From Nitrosomonas sp. (lineage in GTDB: Bacteria; Pseudomonadota; Gammaproteobacteria; Burkholderiales; Nitrosomonadaceae): a stretch of 64,000 bases of DNA. Shown piece after piece: positions 45,360-53,776 of this stretch. Both the position numbers and the translations under genes were made by a program. The stretch covers positions 50,985-114,984 of the forward strand of contig JAHBZZ010000011.1 of NCBI GenBank assembly GCA_019635215.1. The letters run 5' to 3'. Under the pieces are notes generated by a model. That model was given only the letters and a program-made list of their open reading frames with translations. It was not told the origin of the DNA and ran no database searches. Numbering within the stretch: position 1 is the first letter of the stretch; every line of letters begins with the position of its first letter.

Positions 45360-45784
45360 GCCAGTTAAACGGGATAGTGCGACAAACCTGAGATTGGTAA
45401 CTGTAGCGCAAAGTTTCTGGAATGGCTACTGCAGTGTGGGGAGAAGTGGATTCGGATATTTAGATACCAGAGAATCAATGCTCAGGAGTTATTTCAGAAA
45501 ATAAACGCAGAAATCATTCATCGGAATTTAAATCAAAAAATTGTGTTGACGGCGATCAAAAGCGATAAGACACTGACTGAAATCGTTATTGTTGATTTGG
45601 CTAAATTGATGGGATTCTTTTGCATAGAGATTGATTGAAATTCAGTGCAATGGGATTACTACGGGGTATGACCCAGGACACAATTATCCGATTTCTTGAG
45701 GATACAGCCAATTGCCGCAGTTCGCATTTTTGGGAACGGCATGATGCCGGTCGAATGAATTAATTGTGCAGCATAATGTAAAAA
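45360..45784 (+). other. Intergenic stretch with an IS3-type orfA remnant
   Basis: No intact gene. At about 45524-45588 the plus strand reads EFKSK and, one frame over, IVLTAIKSDKTLTEI. This is the start of the helix-turn-helix protein (OrfA) of IS3-family elements, broken by one extra base in an A-run. The remaining transposase and inverted ends are absent. A 32-codon ORF at 45668-45763 is unsupported. Confidence 0.4.
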
Positions 45785-46082
45785 AAGCTGGCCGATAAGC
45801 CGGATTCTGTCGTGGACAGTCATTCATCTAGATGCACAGTTACCTGTACATTCAAGCAACCCACCCGCAGGCTCCGCGAGCCGCCTCACCGCCTGCCTAT
45901 TTGGTCTTGCTCCGGATGGAGGTTACCGCGTTTCACCGTAACTCAATACGCTCGTCTCTGTGGCCCTATTCCTCGCCTCGCGGCGTTCGGCTGTTAGCCG
46001 ACATCCTGCTCTATGGAGTCCGGACTTTCCTCTCCCCGTTGTTCCGGGAGGAACAACCGGCAGCGACTGTCTGGCCAGCTTC
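45785..46082 (-). ncRNA. rnpB: RNase P RNA (class A)
   Basis: The minus strand starts GAAGCTGGCCAGACAGTCGC, contains the hallmark GAGGAAAGTCCGGACTCC, and ends with ACAGAATCCGGCTTATCGGCC followed by AGCTTTTTTT. The first and last segments (GCTGGCC / GGCCAGC) pair as helix P1. About 298 nt is somewhat short but within the bacterial A-type range. It is the catalytic RNA that matures tRNA 5' ends. The final T-run with P1 may act as terminator. Confidence 0.95.
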
Positions 46083-48276: not shown

Positions 48277-48341
48277 AAGCTTTCGTTTCAAAAAAATAAT
48301 ATACTTGCAATTATTTCATATTTCTATTAGCTTCACAGCAT

Positions 48342-50370
<2,029 letters not shown>

Positions 50371-50534: not shown

Positions 50535-51362
50535 ATGGATCTCATTTTATTATTCAAAGCGTTAATCCTCGGTATTGTCGAGGGGTTGACCGAATTTCTG
50601 CCTATTTCCTCAACCGGTCATCTGATTTTGGTCGGCGATTTGCTTGATTTCAACAGTGATCGGGAAAAGGTGTTCATGATCGCCATCCAGCTCGGCGCGA
50701 TTCTGGCTGTTTGCTGGGAATACCGCCGGAAAATCGCCGATGTCATCATGGGCATAGGTTCGGAAAAATCGGCGCAGCGCTTTGTGCTGAATCTGCTCAT
50801 TGCATTCATGCCCGCAGCCATACTGGGCCTGCTGTTTATCGACATAATCAAGCAGTATCTGTTTAATCCGTTATCCGTGGCCACGGCGCTGGTGATCGGT
50901 GGCGTTGTAATTTTATGGGCGGAGCGGCGCGATCATCGGATTGAAGTCGAACAGGTCGATGACATGGATTGGAAACGTGCACTGAAAGTAGGCTGCGCGC
51001 AATGCCTGGCGTTGATTCCGGGTACTTCCCGTTCGGGCGCGACCATCATCGGCGGTTTGCTTTTCGGCCTGTCGCGCAAAGCCGCTGCTGAGTTTTCCTT
51101 TTTTCTCGCCATTCCGATCATGTTTGCCGCGACGTTTTACGATGTCTACAAAAACCGCGCCATTCTGGAATTTGATGACATCGGCATATTCGCTGTCGGT
51201 TTCATTGCTGCTTTCTTCAGCGCGCTCCTCGCCGTGCGTGGTTTGATCCGTTTCATCAGCAATCACGATTTTACGGTATTTGCGTGGTACCGGATTGTTT
51301 TTGGCTGCATTGTTCTGCTGACAGCTTATATGGGGATTGTGGAGTGGTCGGAGCTTCCTTGA
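50535..51362 (+). CDS. uppP: Undecaprenyl-diphosphatase
   Basis: 275 residues with about eight membrane segments. The active-site motifs are [16 protein letters not shown] near residue 17 and [10 protein letters not shown] near 163. It recycles undecaprenyl pyrophosphate to the monophosphate carrier for cell wall synthesis (formerly BacA, bacitracin resistance). It is convergent with the membrane kinase-like gene at 51637. Confidence 0.95.
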
Positions 51363-51636: not shown

Positions 51637-52398
51637 TCATCCGAGCCAGTGCACGCCGATTAGCGCAATACCACCGACACTATAGATCAGCGGGCTATCC
51701 CAGGTATGCGGCGAGAACGCTTCAGCCAGCGTGATCAGCAGCGGTATTGTCAGCAGTGCGGCAGTGAGCTGAACAGCATTGAAATGCGACTGGAATACCA
51801 GGATGGATATGAATGTCGCGCCAAAAACACATGCGCTGCCGGCATAACTGCGCTCATATTTTTTCCGGGTAAACAGTGCGTAAGTGGTATATTTCCGTTT
51901 TCCGAACCGCACCCCGACCGGTTCAGCAAGACCGTCGCCAATACCATTGGCTAAAAGAATGATCATGATCAGCGGCAATATATCCTGTTGCGCGAAATAG
52001 CCCAGCAATGGAATCAGCACCAGATAACTGGCCAGAAACTGCGTATAGAGCCATGTCAGTGTAAGCGGCCTGTCCTCGGGCCGGTCTATGGAATGGAACA
52101 TAACGGCCACCGGCTTGAACCGGTTCCGGATAGGCGCTATAAATAGGGTCAGAAAGACAAATACGAACACGATATCCATCAGGAATGTCGCTGCACTATA
52201 GGAATACGCAATTACCGATTGCAGTGACACCGGCAGAAAGAAGAAGGCAAAGTGATTGATTTTTCTTGTGTAATTGACTTTGACATCATGGTTGATAACC
52301 AGCAGTCCGCATATCCAATGAATCGACACAAGTAATGTGTAAAACAACGCATGATGCAGCCAGTATTCGAGCGGAATATTCATAGTGGACCTTTGCAA
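51637..52398 (-). CDS. Dolichol/diacylglycerol kinase-like membrane protein
   Basis: 253 residues with six or seven hydrophobic segments. The motif GIGDGLAEPVGVRFGKRKY followed by KKYERSYAGSACVF resembles the CTP- or ATP-dependent lipid kinase / phosphatidate cytidylyltransferase superfamily (SEC59, DGK1, VTE5 relatives). The substrate could be a polyprenol, phytol or diacylglycerol. Met6 is an alternative start. It is convergent with uppP, another polyprenyl-lipid enzyme. Confidence 0.72.
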   Translation of the reverse strand: MQRSTMNIPLEYWLHHALFYTLLVSIHWICGLLVINHDVKVNYTRKINHFAFFFLPVSLQSVIAYSYSAATFLMDIVFVFVFLTLFIAPIRNRFKPVAVMFHSIDRPEDRPLTLTWLYTQFLASYLVLIPLLGYFAQQDILPLIMIILLANGIGDGLAEPVGVRFGKRKYTTYALFTRKKYERSYAGSACVFGATFISILVFQSHFNAVQLTAALLTIPLLITLAEAFSPHTWDSPLIYSVGGIALIGVHWLG

Positions 52399-52564
52399 AA
52401 CCCTTGGTTCATAAAAATCCAGTAAAAAATGTGCGATTTCAATCGGGTTTATTCAGTTTTTTATGGATTTTTACAAAAGAATAACAGCAATCCCGGATAG
52501 ATGGGTGGCCTGTCGCGTCGGATACGGGCGCATAGTACTACGAGATTTTTACAAACATCTTACC

Positions 52565-52611
52565 AAATGATAATAATTATCATTTACAATTTGCTCGATA
52601 TCGTTTATACT
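52565..52611 (+). promoter_or_regulatory. Fur box overlapping a sigma-70 promoter
   Basis: TGATAAT-A-ATTATCA (52568-52582) is an exact 7-1-7 Fur operator, extended to a 21-bp perfect palindrome at 52565-52585. Directly adjoining are -35 TTTACA (52583-52588) and, after 17 bp, -10 TATACT (52606-52611). Iron-loaded Fur should block this promoter. Predicted start of transcription is about 52618, plus strand. The reverse direction shows no equally good promoter. Confidence 0.85.
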
Positions 52612-52617
52612 GCCGTT

Positions 52618-52797
52618 TCAACATTAAGTACTTTTTCTCAGTAAAGTACTTAACCGCACCAACCAGCGTACAGCAATGTGCGTAGCCGGATGGTTGGAAC
52701 GATTTGATATGATTCAACATACCCCAGCACATCAATTGATAGCTCTCATCTTTCCTTTGCCCATTCTTGGGTCTTATTAGATGTGCTGGTTTTTTTT
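52618..52797 (+). ncRNA. Candidate Fur-regulated small RNA with intrinsic terminator
   Basis: About 180 nt from the predicted start to the end of the T-run. Hairpin 1: TTAAGTACTTT (52624-52634) with AAAGTACTTAA (52643-52653). Hairpin 2: CCAACCA (52659-52665) with TGGTTGG (52691-52697). Terminator: CCAGCACATC (52724-52733) with GATGTGCTGG (52780-52789), then eight T, with a small CCCA/TGGG hairpin in its loop. There is no ORF of convincing length on this strand between the promoter and terminator. By analogy with RyhB, PrrF and NrrF it could repress iron-using proteins when iron is scarce; sequence similarity to those RNAs was not seen. Confidence 0.75.
52724..52797 (+). terminator. Rho-independent terminator of the candidate small RNA
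   Basis: A 10-bp perfect G+C-containing stem (arms 52724-52733 and 52780-52789) is followed at once by eight T (52790-52797). It works only for plus-strand transcription; on the other strand no T-run follows. The T-run overlaps the stop codon of the convergent LprI/MliC-like gene. Confidence 0.85.
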
Positions 52798-53776
52798 AAT
52801 TGACTGAGATTTTTTTTCTGCAGCGCATTTCCGATGCGCCGTAACCCCAGATGATTAAAACCTCACCCTGATGTTCCCAGAAACTTTCGTTGCGGCCTTG
52901 ATATCTGGCTCCACTACCGCTGGGTTGCACGTACATCAGTGAGACACTGTTTCCATATTCGGCAATCAGTGTGGCCGGGTCGGTGTGGAAGAAAGTCGCA
53001 ACAACTTCCTTGGTAGGGATGTTGTCGCAGATAAAGTGTACCGGTCCGATGCTTGGAACGAGGTGATATCGGGCCTGAAGTTCAGCGATGCGATGCAGGT
53101 ATTCCGTCTTGACGCATTCTCTTTTGTTGTCGGCTTTCCAGCAGTCGTTGCGCCCTTTGAGCCAACCCTTTTGTTCAGCTTTAAGCAGTGGCAAGTGCTT
53201 GTTTTTCGCTTTATGGGATGCCGCGACATAAATATCCGAGAGCGTGCGATCGAGCATGGATAACTGTTCGTCATCGCAAATGATCGCTTCGATGCTTCCG
53301 GTTTTGGTCGCGCCGCAGGGGAATGAAGGACCCGCAGGCTTTGATACTTGAACAGTATTCCCGATTGCGGTGGAAGCGTTGCGATGATTCTGGACCATTT
53401 GATGGATATGATGGCACCAGGCTTCGCTGTCTCTACTTGGGGTATCCGGTTTGCCGCGTATACCCATTCTGAACTCGATAACGGATTTCCATTCATCTGA
53501 GCCTATGTCCGGCCCGTGACCTTGATCGTCAGCGGTAGGCATTTTTTCTTCTATGATTCGATACCATGCGTCAGTACAAAGCGTCTTCGTTTCCGGAGTG
53601 GAATGCGTAACATTGCTTGCTGCCACGGAGACGGATGTTGTTACGAGTAATATTGTCAGGCATCTCTTCAGCAGATTCGCTTTAAGATTACGGACCGGTT
53701 TATTCGGAATCGGGTTGAATCTTGTATTTGTTGCCACCGGTCTCCTCCAATGAATTGACACTCGCATTGAGAACAT
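52796..53776 (-). CDS. Exported LprI-like / MliC-like (lysozyme inhibitor type) protein
   Basis: 326 residues. A positively charged N-region of about 37 residues leads to a signal-like helix (RCLTILLVTTSVSVAASN), so export is likely; the true start may be an unusual codon nearer the signal. Residues about 150-240 form a DUF1311/LprI domain (ICDDEQLSMLDRTLSDIYVAA; AEQKGWLKGRNDCW). The last 75 residues match MliC-type lysozyme inhibitors (FICDNI, VSLMYVQPSGSGARYQGRNESFWEH, EMRC). It may guard against host or predator lysozyme. It is convergent with the candidate small RNA. Confidence 0.75.
   Translation of the reverse strand: MFSMRVSIHWRRPVATNTRFNPIPNKPVRNLKANLLKRCLTILLVTTSVSVAASNVTHSTPETKTLCTDAWYRIIEEKMPTADDQGHGPDIGSDEWKSVIEFRMGIRGKPDTPSRDSEAWCHHIHQMVQNHRNASTAIGNTVQVSKPAGPSFPCGATKTGSIEAIICDDEQLSMLDRTLSDIYVAASHKAKNKHLPLLKAEQKGWLKGRNDCWKADNKRECVKTEYLHRIAELQARYHLVPSIGPVHFICDNIPTKEVVATFFHTDPATLIAEYGNSVSLMYVQPSGSGARYQGRNESFWEHQGEVLIIWGYGASEMRCRKKISVN

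Follow-up and report, generated by a model that had tools for sequence, protein, structure and literature searches.

A predicted Fur-repressed small RNA of Nitrosomonas and the lineage-specific core-hairpin family to which it belongs

What does a 397-bp gap between two minus-strand ORFs (51637–52398 and 52796–53776) of a Nitrosomonas contig encode on its plus strand, where a Fur-like palindrome is followed by a promoter-like sequence and several hairpins? The first-pass annotation of the window, by which we mean the whole 64,000-nt stretch analysed, had read this gap as the gene of an iron-starvation small RNA (sRNA). Our analysis supports that interpretation at the sequence level and widens it into an RNA family. 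The gap very probably hosts a lineage-specific, Fur-repressed structured sRNA: a predicted Fur operator overlaps a sigma-70-type promoter, and the candidate is a stand-alone RNA with a terminator and without a conserved ORF (Table 1).

Table 1. Predicted features of the candidate small RNA locus, in window positions
Feature	Position	Strand	Remarks
Fur operator	52565–52585	neutral	AAATGATAATAATTATCATTT; perfect 10-1-10 palindrome, 21 bp; predicted site
-35 element TTTACA	52583–52588	+	shares three bases with the Fur box; similar layout in Fur-type relatives
-10 element TATACT	52606–52611	+	17-bp spacing from the -35 element
Predicted small RNA	52618–52797	+	about 180 nt; limits deduced from the -10 element (start) and the T run (end)
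5' hairpin	52624–52653	+	11 bp, perfect; 8-nt loop
CCG flank	52654–52656	+	conserved; could pair with CGG at 52687–52689 (possible pseudoknot)
Core hairpin of the family	52659–52697	+	two stems; conserved 3' bulge (7 nt)
UAGCCGGA segment of the core	52683–52690	+	nearly invariant; bulge, first base able to pair
ORF, 34 codons	52676–52780	+	overlaps core and terminator; probably not translated
Intrinsic terminator	52724–52797	+	predicted; 10-bp stem 52724–52733 with 52780–52789; T run 52790–52797
UCCUUU, anti-Shine-Dalgarno-like	52753–52758	+	in the terminator loop; P(unpaired) 0.91–1.00

The elements originally described were recovered on the plus strand in the order Fur palindrome, -35/-10 pair, 11-bp hairpin, bulged hairpin and terminator, with the palindrome lying over the -35 element and the last of the three hairpins being the terminator. 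The exact 7-1-7 Fur operator that had been reported is present at 52568–52582, inside AAATGATAATAATTATCATTT; no second exact site occurs in the window, and the box as a whole matches the classical Fur consensus at 16 of 19 positions. Genome-wide (3.39 Mb), three exact sites were found, against 0.015 predicted by base composition, and tolerance of up to two mismatches yielded 47 sites versus 10 for the reversed pattern that served as control. Each of the other two exact sites precedes a DUF2325 gene; a site with one mismatch stands before a ferritin-like (bacterioferritin-type) gene. The genome encodes Fur itself (a strong match of 152 bits) and also Hfq. The sigma-70-type promoter with 17-bp spacing likewise stood up to inspection, its -35 hexamer being overlapped by the Fur box. 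It agrees with consensus at 10 of 12 positions, a level of match that occurs by chance (seven found versus 7.9 expected), so its weight comes from placement and conservation.

The segment 52618–52800 folds at -54.2 kcal/mol compared with -34.5 ± 3.7 kcal/mol in shuffled sequences (z = -5.4). Of the two perfect hairpins initially claimed, the 5' one is indeed perfect, whereas the second is interrupted by its bulge, and the statement that this strand carries no ORF was inexact, given the 34-codon frame listed in Table 1. The terminator has a perfect stem followed by eight T residues, though its loop spans 46 nt, which is why it was missing from a short-loop scan.

We then asked how far this RNA extends beyond its own locus. 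A DNA search of 125 genomes of the same bacterial family indicated that the widely conserved part is only a core of about 50 nt, present in 17 of them. A covariance model built from 21 cores (R1) recovered a core of about 52 nt 104 times in 40 of the 125 genomes; only one of the four genera is represented, with up to six copies per genome and a weakest match that is partial and scores 26 bits. A second model (R2), made from 104 aligned copies, found matches in 41 genomes and none in the remaining 84; the alignment comprises matches from 100 loci, one from Gallionella among them, and leaves out loci L085 and L151. The window copy scores 68.8 bits with R1 and 63.5 bits with R2, both of which include it, and fits the new family in its paired stems and UAGYCGGA bulge. 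At the level of the order, seven of 399 genomes matched; G453 (56 bits) and, weakly, G492 (31 bits) are the two that lie outside the genus. Among 369 genomes at class level only the window's own genome matched. A pattern scan across genomes of 84,980 species returned 21 stretches, 20 named Nitrosomonas and one from a Gallionella MAG. The lineage restriction suggested for the RNA was thus upheld in the genomes searched, and the members found to date come almost exclusively from Nitrosomonas, where a genome often has more than one copy and viruses of the genus sometimes carry the RNA. Rfam searches at gathering and lax thresholds placed no family on the window RNA, nor did Rfam match the core copies in eight loci of relatives, and annotated phage and plasmid records contained no DNA match to 52560–52805. 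No description of the core-hairpin family was found in the open-access literature searched, as far as its accessible text goes, which does not establish its absence from print.

The window's own genome carries three copies, the two paralogues lying on contigs C44 (L092 2001–2052) and C45 (L093 2001–2053), each with a Fur box and a terminator. These paralogues, the occurrence elsewhere of the core without a Fur box and the phage-borne relatives described below are findings that the first-pass annotation could not have seen. The nearest copies of the window RNA differ from one another: L005 (genome G047) keeps the Fur box and L006 (G070) has lost it, with no promoter seen in the latter. In the stretches examined, the genes flanking the window RNA stand beside neither of these two, and three of the four proteins encoded around it stand beside no other copy. 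The remaining one, uppP, is found beside two copies of a different subtype (L021 and L024). The vicinity of uppP, from which the window copy is about 1.2 kb distant, is a possible hot spot. The uppP product in L021 and L024 is 92 % identical to the protein encoded at 50535–51362 of the window and lies about 150 bp from the RNA copy.

Covariation supports the core hairpin as an RNA structure. Of 15 pairs, three of them those of a possible pseudoknot, 11 change on both sides among 101 distinct rows, in 193 cells compared with a shuffled mean of 36, and the covariation score is 0.389 versus 0.158 in shuffles (none of 500 as high) and no more than 0.088 in slid controls, in an alignment that was fitted to two stems and so favours them. 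A 21-row alignment made without a model agrees, with four of 12 pairs changing on both sides. Outside the stems, a 5' CCGC and the UAGYCGGA bulge are nearly invariant, and UAGYCGGA is kept in most of 104 rows. A possible pseudoknot would arise if the CCG paired, across the outer stem, with CGG. This helix is paired in 98.7 % of cells; its middle pair is invariant in 96 of 101 rows, and of the five that vary one is compensatory and four break the pair, while the only changes at the two outer pairs give wobble pairs. In the paralogue on C45 the minimum-energy fold does not form the core hairpin.

To assess Fur control, the classical 19-bp consensus was matched to the 140 bp that precede each copy. 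Scores of at least 14/19 were obtained for 35 of 106 copies compared with 14 of 794 control windows from the same loci and 2.1 % of 530 shuffles, and the three copies of the window's own genome scored 16, 14 and 14. As many as 63 of the 106 score below 13, indicating that the core on its own is no iron device. A score of 13, reached by 5.8 % of control windows, was attained or exceeded by 43 copies, from which L055, L060, L112 and L145 were excluded because the match was judged to be misplaced in a copy of another promoter subtype. The resulting set of 39 Fur-type copies, with the same order of parts, comes from 24 of the 125 genomes, and the conservation of promoter, hairpins and terminator on which the earlier reading had been staked is therefore evident at the level of the family. 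A promoter scan succeeded in 38 of the 39, versus 17 % of 216 control windows, a generous count since the scan reports the top-scoring pair and not always the one downstream of the box (the window copy included). The terminator scan succeeded in 34 of the 39 and in 11 % of the 216 control windows. In Fur-type relatives the box mostly lies 68–103 bp before the core.

Copies without a Fur box appeared by eye to fall under other promoters, some having a TGTTCG-CGAACA-like palindrome and others a 5' hairpin with a CUCUCC loop, subtype labels that rest on crude patterns. The different palindrome suggests that another regulator drives the same RNA module. By eye it was seen, as TGTTCG...CGAACA or relatives ending in CACAGA or TACAGA, in L010, L012, L016, L060, L110 and L115. 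A short subtype (L107, L117, L130, L133, L137 and L146) has, by eye, a 5' hairpin whose CUCUCCUU-like loop itself resembles an anti-Shine-Dalgarno (anti-SD) sequence, and often GGGAACCAAT upstream.

A second recurrent element follows the core. With the 16S anti-SD tail as reference, anti-SD matches were counted in the 100 nt after the core in 33 Fur-type copies (the 35 scoring at least 14, minus L060 and L112). A match of at least 6 nt was present in 26 of the 33 compared with 12 % of 231 control windows, and one of at least 7 nt in 18 compared with 2.2 %. Copies outside the Fur set also carried matches of at least 6 nt (38 of 73, versus 17 % of 498 control windows). The window copy's own stretch is only 6 nt long, a length reached by 12 % of control windows. 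By eye the stretch mostly occupies the loop of the terminator hairpin, preceding the hairpin in L007 and L009 and following it in L095. With L083, L085 and L151 excluded, the probability that the stretch is unpaired was computed for the Fur-type copies; in the 33 of these whose match reaches 5 nt it averaged 0.78 and exceeded 0.7 in 24. The paralogue on C44 has the loop ACCUCCUU with an 8-nt match (P(unpaired) 0.46–1.00), and that on C45 has only 5 nt, in part paired (0.20–1.00).

From what the sequence itself contains, namely operator, promoter, terminator, covariation in the core, exposure of the anti-SD-like stretch in the window copy and paralogues, we infer transcription, repression by Fur, pairing with mRNA and a role for the core. 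We consider it likely that the locus encodes a trans-acting base-pairing sRNA of about 180 nt, repressed by Fur, that would pair with ribosome-binding sites when iron is low. In iron-replete cells, iron-loaded Fur on the operator over the -35 element would block transcription; as iron falls, Fur would leave and the RNA would be made up to the intrinsic terminator. The C/U-rich stretch in the terminator loop would then pair with ribosome-binding sites, possibly with another seed in the 5' hairpin loop, and such pairing would lower the translation of some mRNAs, probably those of iron-using proteins. The core hairpin, CCG flank and UAGYCGGA bulge would constitute the shared module of the family. 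The core is constant while loops and promoters differ, and it is therefore more likely to serve stability or protein binding than targeting.

The terminator loop of the window copy was predicted to pair with the starts of sodB, sdhC, acnA and bfr no better than with those of 56 window genes, of which 48, 35, 50 and 33, respectively, were as good or better, in a comparison that rests on simple duplex energies and this small background and is weak either way. Across 25 combinations of five genes (sodB, sdhC, leuC, acnA and bfr) with five RNA segments, the best was leuC with the linker (one of 56 background genes as good or better, with a start chosen inside the ORF), followed by sdhC and leuC with the C44 loop (five of 56 each) and acnA with the linker (eight of 56). 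We took these best combinations as chance.

Several members of the family lie in phage early regions. Four copies without a Fur box (L025 1494–1547, L108 2001–2052, L119 2291–2342 and L132 576–627) start no more than about 40 nt after a CII-like gene (PF06892, phrog_101), with a YdaS/Cro-like gene further upstream in L025. A Gallionella-type copy without a Fur box (L083 1501–1546) has a YdaS-like gene on its upstream side and an O-like replication gene downstream. In L103 a tandem of two copies, one without and one with a Fur box, is followed by a phage replication-initiation gene, and a CII-like gene was looked for without success in the stretch examined; a similar tandem was seen by eye in L176. 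In IMG/VR, a strict pattern found nothing and a looser one returned 13 stretches, which come from 12 contigs. Nine of the 13 reach a Fur score of at least 13, one of which (L172) is by eye of another promoter type, and a CII-like gene is found in the stretch examined for seven of the nine (L171, L173, L175, L176, L177, L179 and L180), five of these being close relatives that score only 13, while L173 scores 14 and L176 scores 15. L171 and L178 are not independent, since their contigs are of the same lengths as genome contigs already in the set (G024:C22 and G020:C71). Terminase genes accompany L177 (large subunit) and L175 (small subunit), and the contig of L172 and L176 bears an integrase fragment. 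Among the 39 Fur-type copies from genomes, a CII-like gene was found in the stretch examined for three (L011, where it is about 1.1 kb away, L094 and L101), a count for which only a few hundred upstream bases were covered in several cases.

The copies with Fur-like boxes (scores 13 to 15) in prophage early regions represent a phage-borne small RNA that may be under Fur control. A tree of 44 Fur-type units, midpoint-rooted and with no support values read, gives only a hint in placing the window copy and its two own-genome paralogues with a set including L022, which is on a contig listed as viral by IMG/VR, and the CII-linked copies in its other part. A broader interpretation can be put forward tentatively: the core would be a new, possibly pseudoknotted module that occurs in Nitrosomonas as well as in the temperate phages of the genus and is combined with exchangeable promoters and anti-SD loops; in several phages a Fur-controlled copy directly behind the CII-like gene would let lysogens read host iron at the switch for lysis–lysogeny and replication, and chromosomal Fur-type copies, the window's included, would be relatives kept for host iron control. 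As a separate observation, about 15 nt separate the core in L025 from the start of an ORF, and the core may act in cis there for that reason.

An alternative that we regard as improbable is that the Fur-controlled RNA acts by binding a protein through its core bulge, as a sponge or decoy, instead of by pairing with mRNA. The most conserved part is indeed the core and not the loops, with a nearly invariant bulge; the possible CCG:CGG pseudoknot would form a compact recognition surface; and no mRNA target stood out. However, the C/U-rich stretch is independently enriched, and a single bulge per RNA differs from the repeated-site design of the known CsrA sponges. More doubtful still is the proposal that the conserved core (UAGYCGGAU) is itself the targeting seed of a Fur-controlled sRNA with family-wide common targets, the loops being incidental. 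The retention of UAGYCGGA across the alignment would accord with this, but the motif has a predicted probability of being unpaired of only about one half (mean 0.55 in 38 Fur-type copies), paralogues under different promoters would share all targets, and the energies of the bulge with a few candidate mRNAs were unremarkable. We give little credence to the idea that the Fur box serves the divergent gene 51637–52398, whose product is membrane-protein-like without a Pfam hit, and that the plus-strand RNA has decayed or has no use: the symmetry of the palindrome and its position, 166 bp before the earliest start available to that gene, speak for it, but no minus-strand promoter was found there and the box mostly keeps its distance from the core in relatives while the neighbouring genes differ. 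A small protein of 34 or 23 codons under Fur (52676–52780) is the least credible candidate and was rejected because, although the ORF exists, no related one was seen in the other 38 Fur-type copies beyond the shared core letters, 16 of 39 have no ATG/GTG ORF of at least 15 codons there, and the changes seen preserve RNA pairs.

The base-pairing sRNA that we favour resembles NrrF, RyhB and PrrF1/2 in having a Fur operator at its promoter, an intrinsic terminator and a stand-alone intergenic position, and its occurrence as several paralogues per genome recalls PrrF1/2, which are paralogues in one genome. It differs from all of them in that its core hairpin is also found in RNAs without a Fur box. 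RyhB and NrrF have Rfam families, and no covariance match to RyhB, PrrF or NrrF reached gathering thresholds at the locus; a lax PrrF match of 16.5 bits (E = 3, versus a 90-bit cut-off) lies on the other strand at 52474–52594. The lack of similarity to these and other Rfam families noted at the outset consequently holds at the thresholds used. NrrF of Neisseria, as portrayed in the accessible text of PMC5586341, is Fur-controlled and represses sdhCDAB and petABC, whereas sdhC is unremarkable as a target for the window copy. The alpha-r14, NfeR1 or cuckoo RNAs of Alphaproteobacteria have several hairpins whose anti-SD loops silence mRNAs (PMC10746234, in the portion available). In the same portion their loop motif CCUCCUCCC is conserved while stems vary, whereas in the Nitrosomonas family the core is conserved and the anti-SD stretch varies; the latter family also belongs to another class, includes predicted Fur control and has no Rfam match. 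CCUCCUCCC, identical in three hairpin loops of the cuckoo RNAs, is absent from the window RNA, which has UCCUUU in one loop. Within the genus, predicted sRNAs (psRNA candidates) of Nitrosomonas europaea have been put forward (Gvakharia et al. 2010, FEMS Microbiol Lett, as cited in PMC3927594), and the terms sRNA and small RNA do not occur in the accessible text of a paper on Fur in that species (PMC3050691). By its parts, the window RNA would appear to work like known Fur-controlled and anti-SD sRNAs, and by descent it seems to belong to none of the families tested.

These ammonia oxidisers possess many haem proteins and hence have a high need for iron, and some psRNAs of N. europaea reportedly responded to iron limitation. 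If our reading is correct, these ammonia oxidisers would own an iron-starvation RNA family unrelated to RyhB, PrrF and NrrF. What would set such a family apart is a constant core whose anti-SD stretch and promoter are exchanged (besides the Fur type, two or more other promoters were distinguished by eye), together with its presence on temperate phages, where some copies have a Fur box too. It would make both iron rationing by nitrifiers and RNA-based sensing of host iron by phages open to experiment.

Some further features of the window and genome were recorded alongside. The remaining exact Fur sites, before the two DUF2325 genes, belong to loci L153 (710–1318), L154 (1802–3013) and L155 (1726–2208); one DUF2325 gene adjoins the ferritin-like gene, which has a one-mismatch box of its own. 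The minus-strand ORF 52796–53776, convergent with the RNA and with a stop codon that abuts its T run, encodes 326 aa; an MliC lysozyme-inhibitor domain forms the C-terminal part, and LprI is matched weakly. Rfam also identified two ordinary RNAs in the window, the RNase P RNA at 45780–46082 on the minus strand and a TPP riboswitch at 48337–48442 on the plus strand, before the ORF 48475–50370.
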